From an uncultured Bacillota bacterium (GTDB lineage: Bacteria > Bacillota > Clostridia > Peptostreptococcales > Anaerovoracaceae): a DNA stretch of 11,769 nt. The stretch covers positions 1 to 11,769 of the forward strand of contig CAMYWZ010000010.1 in the NCBI GenBank assembly GCA_947302945.1, in the 5' to 3' direction. How positions within the stretch are numbered: the first letter of the stretch is position 1; each line of letters begins with the position of its first letter. The notes under the pieces were generated by a model. It searched no databases. It had not been told where the DNA came from and saw only the letters and a program-made list of their open reading frames with translations. Shown here piece by piece: positions 906 through 11,351 of this stretch. The position numbers were made by a program, and so were the translations under genes.

Positions 906-2860
906 TTATCTGATCTTTCCTGTTGACATCAAAAGCTCGTAGTCCGGGCTGTTTTTCCTGACGAATACCGGAGGCATACCCATGGGCGCGTCCACGTCCT
1001 GCACGCCTCCGAAATACTGCCTTCCGCTGAATATGTGCACCCAGTTGTCCTCCGGAAGGTATACGCTGCGCGATGCCGCTCCCTCTTTGATGATGGGTGC
1101 AACCAGAACGTCCCTTCCCAGAAGGTACTCGGTCTTTTCCGTGTAAGCTTCGTCCTCTTCGTAGTGGTAGAAAAGAGGCCTCATGACCGGTACGGCCTTC
1201 TCCGCATTCTCCTTTACCAGCTTCTTAAGATAAGGCTTAAGCGCCGCGTGCATGCGGCTGGTCCTTGAAAGCTGCGCAAGAAGCTCTTCGTCCGCGTCGA
1301 ACTGGACGTTCCTTGAAGGCTGATTGCCCTCGTGGCTCCTGAAGAGAGGCGAGAAGGCGTTCATCTCCTCCCAGCGCATCAGAAGCTCCTTGCTCCTTGT
1401 CATGCTCATGATCGTGGTGTAGCCGCCAACGTCGGAATGCGTAAGTCCGAAGCCGCTCATCGCAAGCGAGAGCGTGGCCGGTATTACCGAAGGAAGGCCG
1501 TCGTCCACTGACCAGTCCACGTGCTGGTCCCCGGTCCACATCATGGCGGACTGAGACACGGTGCCGGTGTAGCCGGCCCTGGTGAAGAAGAACACGTCAT
1601 CCTGCACGCCGCACTCTTCTATGGCTTCCCTGTTGAGCCTTGCCCAGACCGCGGGCCAGCTGTTGTGCCAGTCCTCGGGGCTTTCTCCGTTCGAAAGGAC
1701 GCAGTCCATGGGCAGATACTCGCCGAAATCGGCCATCCAGCCGCCCATGCCGAGGTCTATCATGTTCTTTTTTATGATGCCCTTGATCCATTCGCAGGCA
1801 TCCGGGTTCGTGAAGTCCAGCATGGCCGCCGGGAAGGTGGTGATCTTGACGAGGTAGTCTTTGCCGGCCTTGTCCTTTACGCAGTAGCCCTTCTCCGAAG
1901 CCTCCTTGTAGAGGTCCTTTTCTATGGCCAGGAACGGGACTTCCACTGCGCGATCTTTTCCTTAAGATCCGGGTAGAGCTCCCTGTCCTGCTCCCAGTTC
2001 CACATGACCTGGTAGCCAAAGTCCGTGCGCCTGCAGCCGCACCAGTCCTGGGACCATACGCCGCAGACTTTGGCGCCTGCCGCAAGAGCTTTGTTTATCT
2101 TTTCGTCTATTACTTCAGGCCCCTGCTGGATGCCGAGGATGGCGCCGTCATATACCCAGTCCGGAAGCTCCCTCTGGCGGCCTAAAAGCTCCGACAGCTT
2201 ATATGAGATGTCCTCGTAGCTTTCGCCCTGGTAGAAGTACAGCGCGGGGAGTTCCTGCAGATACAGCTTTATCTGCCCCGGGGCCATGAAATCGAACTCC
2301 GAAAACTGCTTCGAATCCGCGTGCATGAAGTACTTCTTGCTTGAAACGAATGTGGGCTGAGCGTAGTAGGATTCGTACCTGTCGAAAGGCATGGTCTTGC
2401 CCGGGAATTTGCCGAAGAGCTTCTGAAGCACGATCTTCTTTCCTATGCGCTTCGCGTTCTGATGTTCCGCGACAAAGATGCGCACTATGCGCTCGCCCTT
2501 AAGATCGAATTTGGAGTAGGTCTCTCCGCAGCCGTACACGTGCTCTCCGAGCGGGTTCATGAAGCCTATCCAGAAGCGGTTCCAGCCCTCAAGATTCTGC
2601 ATCTCGGTAAAGCGCACAGTGATGAGGCCGCCTTCGTCCCGGCTTACAGAGACCATGAGCCTCAGCGAGTTTTTGGGCTCCATGAATTCGATCTCGAAGC
2701 TGTTTTCGGCTTCCCTGAAGGCTATGCGCTTGAGCTCCGCCCTCTGCTTCATGGATCTGGTATATTTGAAGCTGCCGCGGTCCATGGTGAAGTTGTTCTT
2801 CCCCTTCGTGGCCCACTTCTCCATTTCCTTCAGCCTGTCGTAGATGTTCTCTTTGATCAT
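906..2860 (-). pseudogene. yihQ: Sulfoquinovosidase (GH31, YihQ type), reading frame broken by an internal deletion
   Basis: Intact relatives cleave sulfoquinovosyl glycerol or sulfolipid to free sulfoquinovose. Two frames together cover the whole family. The N-terminal half (2860 to 1922, 312 codons) carries VYGCGE, ELPDWVYDG, LGIQQG and VWSQDW. The C-terminal half (about 1946 to 906) carries GGWMADFGEYLP (nucleophile Asp, codon 1728-1730), WTGDQHVDWS (acid/base Asp, codon 1527-1529), HSDVGGYTT and LPEDNWVH. Compared with E. coli YihQ as I remember it, the text jumps from IAQWKSR to FLAIEKDL near 1935. About 31 nt are missing, including the conserved YINP strand, which puts the second half out of frame. 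Restoring 31 nt gives about 661 codons, close to the 678 of YihQ. All catalytic residues survive, so the break is probably recent. YihQ Arg301 is Gln here (codon 2009-2011). A strong promoter precedes it. Translation of the C-terminal half from GTG 1946 is conceivable but would not give a working barrel. Confidence 0.87.
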
Positions 2861-4580: not shown

Positions 4581-4610
4581 TTGAAAAGCCTGCGGGTTTC
4601 ATAGTATAAT
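4581..4610 (+). promoter_or_regulatory. Promoter of the TIR / YidC-fusion operon
   Basis: TTGAAA (4581-4586) and a perfect TATAAT (4605-4610) with an 18-nt spacer, followed by an AT-rich start region and a leader of about 48 nt. It is the only clear promoter before the four co-directional genes at 4666-11351. I see no operator-like dyad in it. Confidence 0.75.
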
Positions 4611-4992: not shown

Positions 4993-7491
4993 ATGGAATC
5001 TTACCAGTATAAAGCTTTCATTTCATACCGGCACGTAAGTCCGGATCAGGACGCGGCTAAAAAGCTCCATACTCTCATAGAAAACTACCCTGTCCCGGCG
5101 GATCTTAAGAAGTCCCTGGGGATAAGCAGGATGGGACGCGTTTTCAGGGATCAGGAGGAGCTTCCGCTGTCCAAGGACCTTGGCGCAGACATACGCACGG
5201 CTCTGGACCATTCGGAGTGGCTCATCGTCATGTGCTCCCCGAGGTATCTGGAATCGAAATGGTGCAACGCGGAGCTGGACCACTTCATCGAGACCGGCAA
5301 GCGCGACCACATCCTCCCCATACTTGTCGAAGGCGAGCCGGACGAGGCATTTCCCCCTCAGCTTCGCTATGAGGAAGTGAACGGGAGGGTCGTTGAGATA
5401 GAGCCCCTTGCCGCGGATATAAGGGCGGACAGCACCGCAGGATCGCTCAAAAAGCTCAAAAATGAAAAGCTGCGCGTGCTTGCCCCGATGCTCGGTGTAA
5501 ACTACGACCACCTGAGGCAGCGCGCAAGAAGGCGCAGGACACGCATAGCAGCCGGCGCCGCAGCAGCCGTTATCGCCCTGCTTTCGGGCATCGTCGTCTA
5601 CACAGTCATCAAAAACCGCCAGGTGACCGCACAGCGCAACATAGCCATGGACAACCAGATGAAGCTCCTTCTTGAGCAGGCGGACATCTCGTCGTCGAGG
5701 GGCAACAAACTGGCCGCGGCGCGTCAGCTGCTCGAGGCCGGAGAGATACGCGAAACTGTCGGGACCCAAAACGACAGCAGCTTTAAAGCCGCTCTCGAGT
5801 ACGCCCTTTACAACACGGACTTCGAGACCGTGCTTACGATAGACAACGACAACCGGCACTTCACGTCGCTGGTGTTTTCGCATAACGACAGGTACCTTCT
5901 GGGCATCACGAATATAAACTCGGCCGCGCTCATAGACGCGGGCACCGGCAAGATCCTTTACACAGTCTCAAGGAGCGACCTGGGCCAGCTTGACAGCGTC
6001 GGCTTCACAGAAGACGACAAATACTTCTACATGGTGGACTCCTGGAACGGATACGTCACCATGTTCGAGACCGGGACCGGCAGCTTCTACCGCCAGTACG
6101 ACGACCCCGGGACGTACACGTGGAGCATCGCCGGCAAGGTCTTCACGACGGACGGCCATATCATAATACCCAGGGAAAAGGTCATGACCCTCTGGGATTA
6201 CAAGGCCGACAAGTATACGGAGATACTCGCGGCGAGCGACACGAACACCTACAACCGCAGCAGCGAGATCCTGGCTCTTTCTCCCGATAAAAAAAACATG
6301 GCCATAGGCGCTGCGTACACGGGAGCCGGCATGAAAATATGCTCCCTGGACGGAAAGACCGTCATTCCTCTTGAGAGAGACAGCAGAGGATACCGCGGCC
6401 TGGTCTGGTCCGGAGACGGAAAGTACCTTGCTGCAGTCTCCGGCAACATGTACTGCGTCTGGGAGACCGCGGGAGGAAAAAGCGTCCTCACAGGGACCTA
6501 CAGCGGCCCTGCGGGCGCTAGTCTCAGCGTCATGATAAACTATGACGGCAGTATACTTCTCGTGATGAGCTCCACCTACCTCGGCGCCGTAGACACCCGG
6601 ACCGGGAAGACGCTCTGGGAGATGGAAAACGAAAAGAACACCGTCACCGAGGCTCAGATCTCCGGAAACGGCAAGTACGTTGCCGCGTCGGGAGGCATCA
6701 ACGGGATATTCGACATAATGACAGGCGAGGTCCTGAGCAAGCAGTCCGGCACCATTTTCTCGCACGACTCCCGCAAAGTCATGGTCAATGCCTACGCGGA
6801 GGACCCTGCCCTTCTGGCCACGCCGGAACTGTCTACTGTCAGCAGAGTCGATGCGTTTACAGGCGAAATATACGAAGCCGCCCGCTACACCGCGCCGGGC
6901 AGGACGCTCTATCTGCCTTTGGACCACAACGTCGGAGATTTCTACAAGACCTTCCCCGGCAACGTCAACCGGCAGGCAAGGGCTTATACCAGCCCGGATC
7001 TGAAATACGCAGTGCAGACCCACGAAGACGGCTACGTCGAAGTCTTCGACATAGACGGCAAGGAACAGGGCGTGCGCATCTACACGATAGCGGAGCACTG
7101 CTGGTATTCAGTTTCCGACGTCGTATTCAGCGGCGACCTTATGGCAAGCTCCGGAGGCTACGACCCGCGCTGCGTTCTGTTCGACCTTAAAACGGGCCGT
7201 ATCACCCACGTTCTGCAGGGCAAGGAGTACTGCTACGGTTCCGAGTTCTCAAAAGACGGCACTAAGATAATAGTTTTCTGCGGCTTTTCGAGAGACAAAG
7301 CCTACGTCTACTCCACAGAGACCGGCAACCTCCTGTACGAATTCACCGCAGGAGAAAACGAGCACTTCAGCAAAATGGGATTTACGGAAGACGGGACCAA
7401 AGTCGTTGTCATGATAGAAGAAGGCGGCGCTGTGATCGGAGAGCTCTACCCGAGCATAGACGAGCTTCTGAAACAGGCCGGGGAGAGATAG
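4993..7491 (+). CDS. TIR domain - transmembrane helix - WD40-like beta-propeller protein
   Basis: The 832-residue protein has three parts. Residues 5-120 are a TIR domain: YKAFISYRH, the BB-loop-like VFRDQEELPLSKDLG, WLIVMCSPRYLESKWCNAEL and HILPILVEGEP. Trp90 and Glu94 form the WxxxE in which bacterial TIR NADases keep the catalytic glutamate. After a basic stretch (about 175-184, RQRARRRRTR) comes one hydrophobic helix (about 185-206). By the positive-inside rule the TIR domain is cytoplasmic and the rest extracytoplasmic. A helical linker (207-275) resembles the segment preceding propellers in caspase/STAND-type WD40 proteins. Residues 278-825 hold roughly a dozen beta repeats, many with a D-x-x-TG turn (DAGTGK, DTRTGK, DIMTGE, DAFTGE, DLKTGR). 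AGAGGA lies 5 nt before the ATG. The next gene starts at the base after its stop, so it is coupled to an envelope-polymer gene. Role inferred: a transmembrane sensor with an NAD-cleaving or scaffolding TIR. No substrate or partner can be read from the sequence. Confidence 0.9.
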   Translation: MESYQYKAFISYRHVSPDQDAAKKLHTLIENYPVPADLKKSLGISRMGRVFRDQEELPLSKDLGADIRTALDHSEWLIVMCSPRYLESKWCNAELDHFIETGKRDHILPILVEGEPDEAFPPQLRYEEVNGRVVEIEPLAADIRADSTAGSLKKLKNEKLRVLAPMLGVNYDHLRQRARRRRTRIAAGAAAAVIALLSGIVVYTVIKNRQVTAQRNIAMDNQMKLLLEQADISSSRGNKLAAARQLLEAGEIRETVGTQNDSSFKAALEYALYNTDFETVLTIDNDNRHFTSLVFSHNDRYLLGITNINSAALIDAGTGKILYTVSRSDLGQLDSVGFTEDDKYFYMVDSWNGYVTMFETGTGSFYRQYDDPGTYTWSIAGKVFTTDGHIIIPREKVMTLWDYKADKYTEILAASDTNTYNRSSEILALSPDKKNMAIGAAYTGAGMKICSLDGKTVIPLERDSRGYRGLVWSGDGKYLAAVSGNMYCVWETAGGKSVLTGTYSGPAGASLSVMINYDGSILLVMSSTYLGAVDTRTGKTLWEMENEKNTVTEAQISGNGKYVAASGGINGIFDIMTGEVLSKQSGTIFSHDSRKVMVNAYAEDPALLATPELSTVSRVDAFTGEIYEAARYTAPGRTLYLPLDHNVGDFYKTFPGNVNRQARAYTSPDLKYAVQTHEDGYVEVFDIDGKEQGVRIYTIAEHCWYSVSDVVFSGDLMASSGGYDPRCVLFDLKTGRITHVLQGKEYCYGSEFSKDGTKIIVFCGFSRDKAYVYSTETGNLLYEFTAGENEHFSKMGFTEDGTKVVVMIEEGGAVIGELYPSIDELLKQAGER

Positions 7492-8739
7492 ATGCTGCCG
7501 AAACTCCTTTACATAGATCCGGGTACCGGCAGCATGCTCTTTACCGTCCTGCTGAGCGTCATAGGCGCCGCGGTGTATTCCGTGAGGGTGCTTGCAAACA
7601 AGCTCAGCGCAGGCGGCGGGAGAAGGAAACGTCCGCGCGAAGGCGGCGCTTCTATTGCTGTCTTTTCCGACAACAAAAGGTACTGGAACGTCTTCGAGCC
7701 GGTATGCCGCGAGCTTGGAAAACGCGGCCGTGAAGTGGCTTATTACACCGCGTCGAAAGACGACCCGGTGTTTTCCTGCGGCCTGCCGTACGTAAAGCCG
7801 GAGTATCTCGGTCCGGGGAACAAAGCCTACCGAAAACTCAACAGCATCAGCGCGTCGGTCCTTCTTTCCACGACCCCCGGTCTTGACGTCTACCAGTGGA
7901 AGCGCTCCCCCGGAGTAGGCTGCTACGTGCACATCCCCCACGCGGCGAGCGAAGTGGTGCTCTACCGCATGTTCGGCCTTGACTATTACGATACGGTCCT
8001 CCTCTCCGGAGAGTACCAGGCCGAGGGGATCAGGGCCCTGGAAAAGCTTCGCTCCCTGCCGGCAAAGGACCTGAGGATGGTGGGCATCCCCTACATGGAC
8101 GAAATGGTCAGACGCCTTGAAAACGCAGGGCCCGCGCCGGATCATCCCCTCACTGTGCTGCTGGCTCCGTCATGGGGAAAAGGAGCCATCTTCGGCAAGT
8201 ACGGCGGGAAGGTGCTGGACGCGCTGCTTTCTACAGGGTACCACGTCATAGTCCGCCCTCACCCGCAGAACATGACTGTGGAAAAGGACATGATGGACAG
8301 GATCATTGCGGATCATCCCGCCTCCGACCGGCTCGAATGGAACTTCGACGTGGACAATTTTGAAGTGCTGCGCCGCAGCGACATACTCATCTCGGACTTT
8401 TCCGGGATCATCTTCGACTTCACGCTGGTGTACGACAAGCCTGTCATCTATACCGAACCTGAACTGGATCTTTCACCCTACGACGCGTGGTGGCTCAAAG
8501 ACATGCCGCTCTGGACGTTTTCCGCCCTGCCCCGCCTTGGAATGAGGCTCGGCGAGGACAACATGCAAGACGTCAAAAGCATCATCGACAGCTGCCTTAC
8601 CGACCCGCGCTTCGCGGAGGGCCGCAGGCAGGTAAAGGCTGAGACATGGGCTCACTTCGGGGAAGGCGCGGCATGCGCCGCAGACGTCCTGGAGGAAAAG
8701 TACGCTCAGGTATGCGGAAAGGAGGACGGAAAAGCATGA
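7492..8739 (+). CDS. Membrane-anchored CDP-glycerol:glycerophosphotransferase-like protein (TagB/TagF family)
   Basis: 415 residues. An N-terminal anchor contains YIDPGTGSM (7-15), a motif I know from membrane proteins in surface-polysaccharide clusters, followed by one hydrophobic helix (about 15-37) and a basic linker. The rest is a GT-B-like domain with family marks: LLAPSWGKG (223-231), HVIVRPHPQ (251-259) and DILISDFSGIIFDF (297-310), then DKPVIY. These are the nucleotide-sugar-alcohol-binding elements of teichoic-acid glycerol-phosphate polymerases and primases. The first catalytic motif, usually HGTxLK, is replaced by CYVHIPHAASE (144-154), so it is a divergent subfamily and the transferred group may not be glycerol phosphate. 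It starts with ATG directly after the TIR stop (TAG|ATG) and ends in an ATGA overlap with the YidC fusion. The likely task is adding polyol-phosphate or similar units to a membrane-bound glycopolymer at the cytoplasmic face. Confidence 0.85.
   Translation: MLPKLLYIDPGTGSMLFTVLLSVIGAAVYSVRVLANKLSAGGGRRKRPREGGASIAVFSDNKRYWNVFEPVCRELGKRGREVAYYTASKDDPVFSCGLPYVKPEYLGPGNKAYRKLNSISASVLLSTTPGLDVYQWKRSPGVGCYVHIPHAASEVVLYRMFGLDYYDTVLLSGEYQAEGIRALEKLRSLPAKDLRMVGIPYMDEMVRRLENAGPAPDHPLTVLLAPSWGKGAIFGKYGGKVLDALLSTGYHVIVRPHPQNMTVEKDMMDRIIADHPASDRLEWNFDVDNFEVLRRSDILISDFSGIIFDFTLVYDKPVIYTEPELDLSPYDAWWLKDMPLWTFSALPRLGMRLGEDNMQDVKSIIDSCLTDPRFAEGRRQVKAETWAHFGEGAACAADVLEEKYAQVCGKEDGKA
8718..8738 (+). promoter_or_regulatory. 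Ribosome binding site and start overlap fixing the YidC-fusion start
   Basis: AAAGGAGG (8718-8725) lies 10 nt before the ATG at 8736-8738, which overlaps the TGA of the upstream gene (8737-8739) in a classic ATGA. The frame is open back to 8646, but those extra 30 codons encode an arginine-rich stretch that overlaps the upstream gene and lacks a ribosome binding site, so the 871-residue form is chosen. Confidence 0.85.
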
Positions 8740-11351
8740 CGTTTTTCGGGATCCTCGGTTCCGTTATAATAGGCCCGCTCAAGCTGGTCTTCGAGATAAT
8801 ATTCCAGACAGCCTACGAGATCACCGCAAACCCGGGAGTATCGATAATCTTCCTCAGCCTGGCCATGAACTTCCTCGTGCTGCCGCTCTACAGGAGGGCC
8901 GACGCCATGCAGGAAGCCGCAAGGGATACCGAAGCCAGGCTCGCCGGAGGCATCTCCCACATCAAAAAGACTTTTTCGGGCAGCGAACGCTTCATGATGC
9001 TGCAGACCTATTACCGCCAGAACGGCTATTCGCCTCTGAACGCGCTGAAAGGCTCTGTTTCGCTGCTTCTTGAGATACCTTTCTTCATGGCGGCCTACCA
9101 GTTCCTGGCGCATCTGGACGTGCTGCAGGGCGTAAAGTTCGGGCTCATCTCCGACCTGGCGCTGCCGGACGGCATGCTTGCCATAGGCGGCCTTAACGTA
9201 AACCTGCTGCCTGTGCTGATGACACTTATCAACTTCATATCAGCCGCGATATACCTCAAGGGCTTCCCCCTCAAGACCAAGGTGCAGCTCTACGCGCTGG
9301 CGGTCTTTTTCCTGGTGTTCCTGTATTCGTCCCCTTCCGGGCTCGTGTTCTACTGGACCCTTAACAACGTGTTCTCGCTGTGCAAGAACATATTCTTCAA
9401 GATCATACAAAAGGACAAAAAGCCCGAAAAAGAGCTGAAAACGCAGGCTCCGGCCGAACCGGACAGGAGGCTCTTCATTGCTGCGGCTGTCTTCCTGACG
9501 ATACTGACGGGGCTCCTGATACCGACCGCGTATCTTGCGGCATCACCCCAGGAATACATGCTGACCGGGACTTCGTTCAGCCCGGTGTGGTACGCGGTCA
9601 GGGCTCTGTGCCTTGCGGCAGGCACCTTCCTGCTGTGGTTCGGGGTGTTCTACTGGCTCGCGAGCCCCCGGGGCAAAGTGCGGTTCGAAAGGTCCATGTG
9701 GGTCTTCTGCGGGATAGCCGCGGTGGATTACATGTGCTTCGGGACCGGTCTGGGCATAGTGTCGTCGACCCTGCAGTTTGAAGGGAGCATGGATTTCACT
9801 GTCCCCGAGAGGATACTGAACCCTCTCATACTCATAGCTTTGGGCTTCCTGATGGTCTTCATCGCAAGGAAGCTTCGAAACGTTCCGCGCATCGTCCTGC
9901 TCGCTGCAGCCTGCGCCATGCTTCTCATGTCCTTTCTGAACATCCGCACCATAAGCGGCTCGCTTTCAGGCGCGGCATCTTCGGAAAACAGAAAAGGCCC
10001 GCATTTCGAGCTCAGCAAAAACGGCCGGAACGTAGTGGTGCTCTTCATGGACAGGGCAATGGCAGAATACATGCCGTACATTCTGAATGAAAGACCGGAG
10101 CTTACGAAGATCTACGACGGCTTCACTTTCTACAGCAACACCATCTCCTTCGGAGGGCACACCAACATGGCAGCGCCCGCGCTTATGGGCGGCTACGAGT
10201 ACACCCCGGTGGAGCTGAACAAGCGCGGCTCGGAGTCGCTGAAGGAAAAGCACAACGAATCGCTCAAGGTCATGCCTGTGCTCTTCCTTGAGAACGGATT
10301 CAACGTTACGGTCTGCGACGCGCCCTACGCAAACTACGAGTGGATCCCTGACATGTCGATCTACGACGAGTGGCCCGGGATCGACACCTACATCACCGAA
10401 GGCTATTTCGGGGACGTTCAGGACAAGGAAGAGGTCATAGACCGCAACCTCAGGAACTTCTACTGCTTTGCGCTGATGAAGACACTGCCTGTGGAGATCC
10501 AGCCCCTGTTCTACGACGGCGGCCACTACCTTGCGGCGGGTTCCGCGGGCACAGGCATCTACCAGACTGTCGAAAACATGTCGGTGTCAACAGGCATCAG
10601 CGAGGCATTCATGGATTCCTACGAAGTCCTTGAAAACCTCAGCAACATGACGGTCATAACGGAAGGGTCGGACGACAATTTCCTCTTCCTCTACAACGAC
10701 ACGCCCCACGAGGCCATGCTCCTTCAGGAACCGGAGTACGTACCGGCGCTCTCCGTGGACAACACCGAATACGACAAAGAACACGCCGGGCGATTTACCG
10801 TCGGCGGGAAGACCATAAGGATAAACTATGCCGAGCAGATGATGCACTACCAGAGCAACATGGCAGTGCTTCTCAAGGTCGGGGAATGGCTGGACTTCCT
10901 CAGGGAAAGCGGCGTCTATGACAACACGAGGATCATTATCGTTTCCGACCACGGATACTACCTGTACCAGACTCCCCAGCTGCAGTTCTCTGCCGGCGGA
11001 AAGAGCGTAGACGGTGCGAATTACTATCCCCTGCTGATGGTCAAGGAATTCGGGCGCGAGGGCTTCATGACCTCGAACGAGTTAATGACCAATGCGGACG
11101 TGCCGACTCTTGCGTTCAAAGACGTGATAAAAGACCCGGTGAATCCATTCACCGGAAAGACGATAGACAGCAGCGAGAAGACTGCCCACGACCAGTACAT
11201 CCTTCTGTCCAAAGACTGGGGAGTGGACAGCAACAACGGAAACGTTTTCCATGCCGGGACCTGGGCTGCCGTGAAAAACGACATCTGGAACAGGAACAAC
11301 TGGAGCTTCATCAATGAGGAAGTGGTCCTGACAGAGCACGCCAGGCCCTGA
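8736..11351 (+). CDS. YidC/Oxa1-like domain fused to a membrane block and an LtaS/sulfatase-like alkaline-phosphatase-superfamily domain
   Basis: 871 residues from the ATGA start. Residues 1-225 follow the YidC/Oxa1 insertase core: a hydrophobic N-terminus, GVSIIFLSLAMNFLVLPLY, a basic/acidic hairpin (53-95), NALKGSVSLLLEIPFFMAAYQFL, and SSPSGLVFYWTLNNVFSL. The arginine of the insertase groove (E. coli YidC R366) aligns with Asn45. A charged linker (225-244) leads to about four to five more membrane helices (245-405). Residues about 430-871 resemble the extracytoplasmic domain of LtaS-type phosphoglycerol transferases and sulfatases: NVVVLFMD (metal Asp439), GGHTNMAAPALMGG (possible nucleophile Thr476), NDTPHEAMLL, and RIIIVSDHG (metal Asp738/His739). 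There is no Cys/Ser-x-Pro-x-Arg formylglycine signature, so true sulfatase activity is unlikely. Last gene of the operon, coupled to the CDP-glycerol-transferase-like gene. Inference: an envelope enzyme that transfers or removes a phosphorylated polyol outside the cell, with the YidC part as specialised scaffold. Domain calls are firm; catalytic details tentative. Confidence 0.88.
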   Translation: MTFFGILGSVIIGPLKLVFEIIFQTAYEITANPGVSIIFLSLAMNFLVLPLYRRADAMQEAARDTEARLAGGISHIKKTFSGSERFMMLQTYYRQNGYSPLNALKGSVSLLLEIPFFMAAYQFLAHLDVLQGVKFGLISDLALPDGMLAIGGLNVNLLPVLMTLINFISAAIYLKGFPLKTKVQLYALAVFFLVFLYSSPSGLVFYWTLNNVFSLCKNIFFKIIQKDKKPEKELKTQAPAEPDRRLFIAAAVFLTILTGLLIPTAYLAASPQEYMLTGTSFSPVWYAVRALCLAAGTFLLWFGVFYWLASPRGKVRFERSMWVFCGIAAVDYMCFGTGLGIVSSTLQFEGSMDFTVPERILNPLILIALGFLMVFIARKLRNVPRIVLLAAACAMLLMSFLNIRTISGSLSGAASSENRKGPHFELSKNGRNVVVLFMDRAMAEYMPYILNERPELTKIYDGFTFYSNTISFGGHTNMAAPALMGGYEYTPVELNKRGSESLKEKHNESLKVMPVLFLENGFNVTVCDAPYANYEWIPDMSIYDEWPGIDTYITEGYFGDVQDKEEVIDRNLRNFYCFALMKTLPVEIQPLFYDGGHYLAAGSAGTGIYQTVENMSVSTGISEAFMDSYEVLENLSNMTVITEGSDDNFLFLYNDTPHEAMLLQEPEYVPALSVDNTEYDKEHAGRFTVGGKTIRINYAEQMMHYQSNMAVLLKVGEWLDFLRESGVYDNTRIIIVSDHGYYLYQTPQLQFSAGGKSVDGANYYPLLMVKEFGREGFMTSNELMTNADVPTLAFKDVIKDPVNPFTGKTIDSSEKTAHDQYILLSKDWGVDSNNGNVFHAGTWAAVKNDIWNRNNWSFINEEVVLTEHARP

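Follow-up and report, generated by a model that had tools for sequence, protein, structure and literature searches.

A YidC-like module fused to an alkaline-phosphatase-superfamily domain: a candidate head-group transferase at the surface of gut and rumen Clostridia

Modules of the YidC type normally serve membrane-protein insertion, and a TM1 groove bearing a positive charge is one criterion of the YidC/Oxa1 family. LtaS/LtaP and PbgA/YejM have glycerol-phosphate or lipid roles, and we know of no YidC module in them; the phospho-form transferases PptA, EptA and MCR-1 have, to our knowledge, neither a YidC module nor a partner enzyme like the one described below. Phosphonate hydrolases belong to the alkaline-phosphatase superfamily, so this superfamily can handle phosphonates. 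LicD is a known choline-phosphate transferase, and enzymes of the PF04464 family use CDP-activated alcohol phosphates. Lipid scrambling in vitro has been reported for YidC (PMC10491306). PptA modifies proteins with phosphorylcholine; the article in question saw no sign that Lic-1 and PptA occur together in any of its 26 species, and it described the pathway supplying the PptA donor as yet to be identified (PMC10434233). In the Pnt pathway, activation of choline phosphate and aminoethylphosphonate (AEP) by LicC/PntC has been shown, and the later tailoring steps were called enigmatic, LicD-like phosphotransferases or glycosyltransferases being named in the gene neighbourhoods (PMC6697681). The words YidC and sulfatase are absent from the text of PMC6697681 and PMC10434233. 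The preliminary description of the present locus knew of no experimental account of a YidC-transferase fusion, and none was found in the open-licence literature of PMC.

The window, that is the whole stretch of 11,769 nucleotides that was analysed, lies on contig C10 of a 1.38 Mb genome (G000; 72% complete). It carries on the plus strand an intact frame of 871 aa (8736-11351), the YidC-AP fusion gene, here called YS. The YidC-like core (8736-9410, residues 1-225) comprised an N-terminal helix, TM1, C1 and TM2-TM5, with TM1 continuing into the basic C1 region (residues 53-112). It was followed, on the same strand, by a basic linker predicted to be cytoplasmic (9411-9464, residues 226-243; mean of 9.2 Lys plus Arg across the family), by a second membrane block (9465-9974) with five predicted helices (residues 244-269, 284-308, 311-336, 356-379, and 383-413) and by an alkaline-phosphatase-superfamily domain predicted to be extracytoplasmic (10020-11348, residues 429-871). 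Pfam matches above the cut-offs were obtained for 60KD_IMP (YidC; residues 34-221) and Sulfatase (residues 431-768), the former, PF02096, with 75.6 bits vs. a curated cut-off of 35. The preliminary description had read here one polypeptide joining a YidC/Oxa1 domain to a sulfatase-like domain, with a second set of helices between a YidC-like core and the catalytic domain; profiles, relatives and the predicted structural model all agreed with that reading, the model giving both folds and, for the YidC part, a five-helix core with the C1 region.

A search of 5.8 billion proteins returned at least 4886 matches at E ≤ 1e-5 among 8000 candidates scored, a total that may take in other YidC proteins. 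Among the best 120 listed, PF02096 was present in all and length was 871-943 aa in 117; identity to the window protein was 50-76% (119 relatives, the window's own entry excluded), and the precomputed Sulfatase label was absent from 23 of the 120. An assembly fusion of two genes, which the preliminary description had named as a refutation, was ruled out by the occurrence of the same architecture in relatives from many assemblies; the fusion is thus real and common. A name given by the source accompanied 15 of the 120 proteins, always 'YidC/Oxa1 family membrane protein insertase' and in some cases partial; this naming hides a system by which Clostridia of the gut and the rumen likely decorate their surface. 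Searches for stand-alone forms, with YS residues 425-871 and 1-235 as queries, returned mainly full fusions or short pieces among the best 120 of each. Six short YidC pieces were inspected, and since four extended beyond the YidC core before ending and two broke off in odd tails, they resemble truncated or disrupted copies of YS. In the alignment, family members of about 920 aa have an insert of some 40 mainly hydrophobic residues after window residue 225, where the YidC core meets the linker; the window protein lacks this insert.

As compared to YidC/Oxa1 insertases such as B. halodurans YidC2 and E. coli YidC, YS shares PF02096 over the cut-off and the predicted five-helix core fold with its C1 region, and differs by the transferase fusion and by its score with the canonical YidC model TIGR03592 (73.3 bits, below the cut-off of 84.3). 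The TM1 groove position, mostly Arg in eight canonical YidCs encoded by YS-bearing genomes (Arg in five, Lys in one, Asn in two), was mostly Asn in YS (N45 in the window; Asn in 98/100, Ser in 2/100), whereas three YS copies further removed had Gln or Thr. The two canonical YidCs with Asn (L107 and L108) indicated that the groove Arg is not universal among insertases, and the argument that a lost groove Arg means no insertase was withdrawn, given Asn in 2/8 and Lys in 1/8 canonical proteins. Other polar residues of the YS core were more informative. When 102 near-related YS were set against the eight diverse canonical YidCs, T163, N166, and N210 were invariant in 102/102 YS and varied in the canonical proteins, which suggests a constant ligand; Q184 was kept in 101/102 YS.

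These residues bear on the reading in which the YidC part is still an insertase that inserts a membrane protein and passes it to the outer domain for choline-phosphate or phosphonate modification. We regard this as very unlikely. The predicted YidC fold is intact, basic C1 region included, PptA of the same superfamily decorates proteins with phosphorylcholine (PMC10434233), and the lack of the groove Arg, shared with 2/8 canonical YidCs, is compatible with insertion; however, the fixed T163, N166, N210, and Q184 look more like contacts of a constant ligand than of varied nascent chains, the TIGR03592 score lies below its cut-off, and no substrate-like protein appeared among the neighbour clusters found in at least four loci. 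A separate canonical YidC is encoded elsewhere in the window genome, and all 13 YS-positive genomes checked contained, besides YS, a frame of 244-456 aa with a stronger PF02096 match, which rules out YS as the sole YidC of the cell and answers a point that the preliminary description had raised. One of these genomes (G314) also has a PF02096 domain (C57:6857-7426; 110.7 bits) within a 660-aa frame, in addition to YS and a YidC of 456 aa; this frame may encode a different type of YidC fusion.

In the outer domain, D439 (10050-10052), T476 (10161-10163), H658 (10707-10709), and D738-H739 (10947-10952), all on the plus strand, were invariant in 102/102 YS. We take them to be a metal ligand, the nucleophile, a metal or substrate ligand, and metal ligands, respectively, roles assigned by family motif and not by superposition. 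The modelled domain displayed an alkaline-phosphatase-superfamily fold matching those of LtaP, LtaS, and PbgA, and positive-inside counts agreed with a catalytic domain on the outer face, the topology we infer for YS. With transferases of the LtaS/EptA/PptA type YS shares the superfamily fold, the preceding membrane helices (five), and a presumed Thr nucleophile with Asp/His ligands. PF04991 (LicD) was absent from the Pfam matches of YS and of its partner at E ≤ 1. We file YS as an alkaline-phosphatase-superfamily surface transferase with a YidC-superfamily module, neither a canonical YidC nor an LtaS.

The partner gene, here called GT (7492-8739, plus strand), encodes a PF04464-like CDP-alcohol phosphotransferase of 415 aa with a single N-terminal hydrophobic segment; the Pfam match (39.1 bits vs. 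a cut-off of 22.1) covers model positions 158-297 of 367 only. Its stop codon overlaps the YS start in an ATGA (8736-8739, plus strand) preceded by the ribosome-binding site AGGAGG at 8720-8725, in line with the coupling proposed in the preliminary description. A scan of species genomes gave at least 592 stretches matching a search pattern, at least 562 of them confirmed, and the best 80 yielded the 78 loci considered below; these represent the top scores and not a random draw, and are biased to near relatives. Cultured strains were among the carriers of the family (Schwartzia succinivorans DSM 10502, Butyrivibrio sp. MB2005, and [Clostridium] aminophilum DSM 10710). Within this set, a GT homologue was present in 65/78 loci, in 62 of them on the same strand and within 400 nt of YS (59 upstream, 3 downstream); the spacing was 30 nt or less in 56/78 and a 4-base overlap occurred in 13/78. 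Between two and eight YS frames were found in 16/78 loci, mostly with one GT; a single GT for several YS would make sense if the donor were common to them and the acceptors were not. At the extreme, eight YS frames lay in a row with a single GT (L071, 3-20591), one of them cut by the locus end and two being adjacent and part-length.

This close and often translationally coupled pairing can also be read with the YidC module as a structural scaffold only, its role being to keep GT in place or to support the second membrane block, with the donor lipid flipping unaided or through another flippase. The basic C1 region and the linker could dock GT, and the relay proposed below would accommodate such a role in its steps 1, 2, and 4. 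We consider it improbable, in that the polar residues within the membrane vary less than those of the eight canonical YidCs, beyond what docking at the cytoplasmic face would need. The preliminary description had suggested that the YidC fold was recruited as a membrane scaffold or lipid-substrate groove, an interpretation that the present results support in part.

Genes for small head groups recurred beside GT-YS. When neighbours were clustered (81 sequences), 31 loci had a LicC/LicA-like cluster and 12 a LicB-like permease. Separate queries against the 78 loci found LicC in 25, LicA in 20, LicB in 12, and LicA or LicB in 22; PEP mutase or Ppd was present in 4 loci and a CobD-like match in 3. 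At least one head-group gene was present in 35/78 loci (26 of the 41 that are flanked by 5 kb or more in each direction), and none was recognised within the available flanks in the remaining 43 or in the window's own locus. The LicC of one locus (L007) matched the CTP:phosphocholine cytidylyltransferase 1jyk (E 7e-41), and LicA matched the choline/ethanolamine kinase family protein 3dxq (E 1e-43) and the choline kinase 4r77 (E 3e-39). A LicC-LicA fusion (L077) scored 32.4 with Pfam Choline_kinase (cut-off 29) and passed no NCBIfam cut-off; the LicA-like proteins could phosphorylate ethanolamine instead.

A genome of the window's genus (G125; 98% complete) has GT-YS-LicC-LicA on one strand and with overlapping ends. 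In the window genome a LicC-LicA fusion lies at C156:1-1065, cut by the contig start. G143 displayed LicB, LicA, a LicC-LicA fusion, four choline-binding-repeat proteins (Choline_bind_3, E 1.7e-42 to 1.1e-13) and then GT-YS-YS, the cluster being flanked by two further PF04464 genes. Four consecutive choline-binding-repeat proteins were observed between lic genes and GT-YS-YS in L084 (6112-13362); in the first set of loci, phmmer matched such repeats in L029 and L060, and a poor repeat-pattern scan gave none.

Phosphonate genes were seen in other genomes. The first copy in G241 is ordered YS-GT-LicC/PntC-like-AEP transaminase-PEP mutase-Ppd (transaminase 447 bits vs. a cut-off of 361), followed by a LicD-like gene; this is the gene set of Pnt phosphonate tailoring (Ppm, Ppd, AEP transaminase, and PntC; PMC6697681). 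Near the second YS-GT of this genome, BCCT-, LicC-, and LicC-LicA-like genes were located on the opposite strand at distances of 0-8 kb. The YS-positive genomes that lack LicA (G261, G401, G386, G344, and G279) were informative. G261 carried PEP mutase and Ppd, both above the cut-off, a LicC-like domain and an iron alcohol dehydrogenase-like protein (below the cut-off) beside YS and GT, and in G401 PEP mutase and Ppd exceeded their cut-offs. A dehydrogenase-like gene and a LicC-like protein adjoined GT-YS in G386, with PEP mutase elsewhere; G344 had no head-group gene beside YS and a PEP mutase on another contig; in G279 a LicC-like domain was fused to a CobD-like domain (below the cut-off). 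A LicC-like nucleotidyltransferase with a CobD-like domain (below the cut-off) was also seen near GT and two YS in L089 (2092-4008), where it may supply a further head group, e.g., ethanolamine or aminopropanol phosphate. Between YS-GT and lic-like genes of L095 (10372-14464), BCCT-, MtaA/MtbA-, and trimethylamine-methyltransferase-like genes, all below cut-offs, suggested quaternary-amine metabolism.

Co-occurrence was counted in genome samples that overlap with the loci: L004 comes from G125, and the contigs suggest that L044 belongs to G314 and L060 to G143. In the order sample YS was present in 3/148 genomes, all three with LicA, which occurred in 27/148. The class sample of 293 genomes contained 11 with YS, 24 with LicA (E ≤ 1e-15), and 24 with PEP mutase above the cut-off, a cut-off passed by 0/14 control genomes. 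LicA or PEP mutase was found in 10/11 YS-positive vs. 28/282 YS-negative class genomes (Fisher 4e-9, a value that overstates independence because 8 of the 11 belong to one genus); LicA was absent from 5/11. In the eight sampled genomes with both genes, YS and LicA lay on one contig within about 13 kb in four (G125, G143, G218, and G241) and were not linked in the other four (G000, G195, G314, and G359). LicA was present in 28 of 50 YS genomes reached through the loci and chosen by us from the 78, a rate not strictly comparable with that of the class sample because the make-up of the samples differs.

In a tree of 117 YS the window fell within a clade of 38 rows (support 98), of which 17 bore the choline label (LicA, LicB or choline-binding repeats no more than 10.5 kb away), 2 had LicC only, 19 were unlabelled and none bore the phosphonate label. 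Across the tree the choline label was weakly clustered (21 changes vs. 25.1 when shuffled) and the phosphonate label was not (6 changes for 6 rows vs. a shuffled mean of 5.9). Head-group specialisation by clade was accordingly left unsupported for phosphonate, its label being scattered.

All these arrangements can be put together in a relay. In step 1, a small head group would be activated with CMP by cytoplasmic enzymes; the product is most likely CDP-choline in the window's clade (LicA, LicC) and, in some relatives (PEP mutase, Ppd, PntC-like), CMP-AEP or a phosphonate akin to it. In step 2, the membrane-anchored GT would move the phospho- or phosphono-head group onto a lipid; GT could use CDP-choline or CMP-AEP, as these undergo the same kind of cleavage as CDP-alcohol phosphates. 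In step 3, the polar groove of the YidC module would let that lipid, or its acceptor, cross or be held, and in step 4 the outer domain would take the head group on Thr476 and hand it over to a surface acceptor. Steps 2-4, the donor lipid and the acceptor are our inference. On balance we favour YS as an extracytoplasmic head-group transferase working with GT (steps 1, 2, and 4), and advance step 3 as translocation of a lipid or head group only tentatively. The fusion would become intelligible in this way, since translocation between the membrane faces is needed and YidC was reported to scramble lipids in vitro (PMC10491306). Taken to its full extent, the YidC fold would be a dedicated translocator of the head-group lipid, fused to the enzyme that works outside and forming with GT a relay for various CMP-activated zwitterionic groups (choline phosphate, AEP, perhaps others), an outer-face counterpart of LicD and a candidate for the missing phosphonate-tailoring transferase; this combined reading is rather doubtful.

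The distribution of LicD cuts both ways. The LicA, LicC, and LicB homologues of the Lic-1 pathway adjoin GT-YS, and LicD was not found in G000 (72% complete), G125 (98% complete) or G261, where GT-YS could replace it. It was found in 10/13 YS genomes. G143 has it at a distance of about 3 kb from LicB-LicA, G241 within its AEP cluster and G195 next to PEP mutase; since it stands within the same clusters, LicD may do the head-group transfer in these three genomes, YS doing something else. YS would then be an LtaS/OpgB-like glycerol-phosphate transferase or polymerase using phosphatidylglycerol, GT would be a TagF-like glycerophosphotransferase, and the choline and phosphonate genes would be mere surface-glycan neighbours. 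The fold matches of the outer domain to LtaP, LtaS, and PbgA, the match of GT to the CDP-glycerol family, and the two additional PF04464 genes around the G143 cluster point the same way as the frequent LicD. We nevertheless hold this to be unlikely, because Lic or phosphonate genes recur in overlapping GT-YS operons, also in the absence of LicD (G125 and G261); TagD-like matches occurred in 2/78 loci, a weak test in that the query was the cytidylyltransferase segment of a PEP mutase fusion. If the relay is the right reading, it would offer a candidate route for CMP-activated phosphonates to the bacterial surface, the later steps of which are 'enigmatic' in PMC6697681, and a candidate answer to how an alkaline-phosphatase-superfamily enzyme on the outside obtains its choline-phosphate donor (PMC10434233); it would also provide a YidC-fold protein with a lipid job in the cell after the scrambling reported in vitro (PMC10491306).

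Other genes were observed around GT-YS. Directly upstream in the window (4993-7491) lies a frame for an 832-aa protein with a TIR domain and a beta-propeller, whose TAG stop abuts the GT ATG; this TIR-WD40 neighbour was left out as a part of the system, being in no neighbour cluster of at least four loci. A promoter-like site occurred at 4581-4610, and the scan for promoters and terminators in total gave sites at about the level of shuffled sequences (4 vs. 2.8 and 8 vs. 6.8, respectively). A gene for a CAAX-type (Rce1-like) membrane protease was present in six clustered loci (e.g., L034, 3675-4385), in several directly before GT-YS. On the minus strand of the window (906-2860), two adjacent frames matched consecutive parts of the alpha-glucosidase model PRK10426, so this gene looks frameshifted or mis-sequenced.
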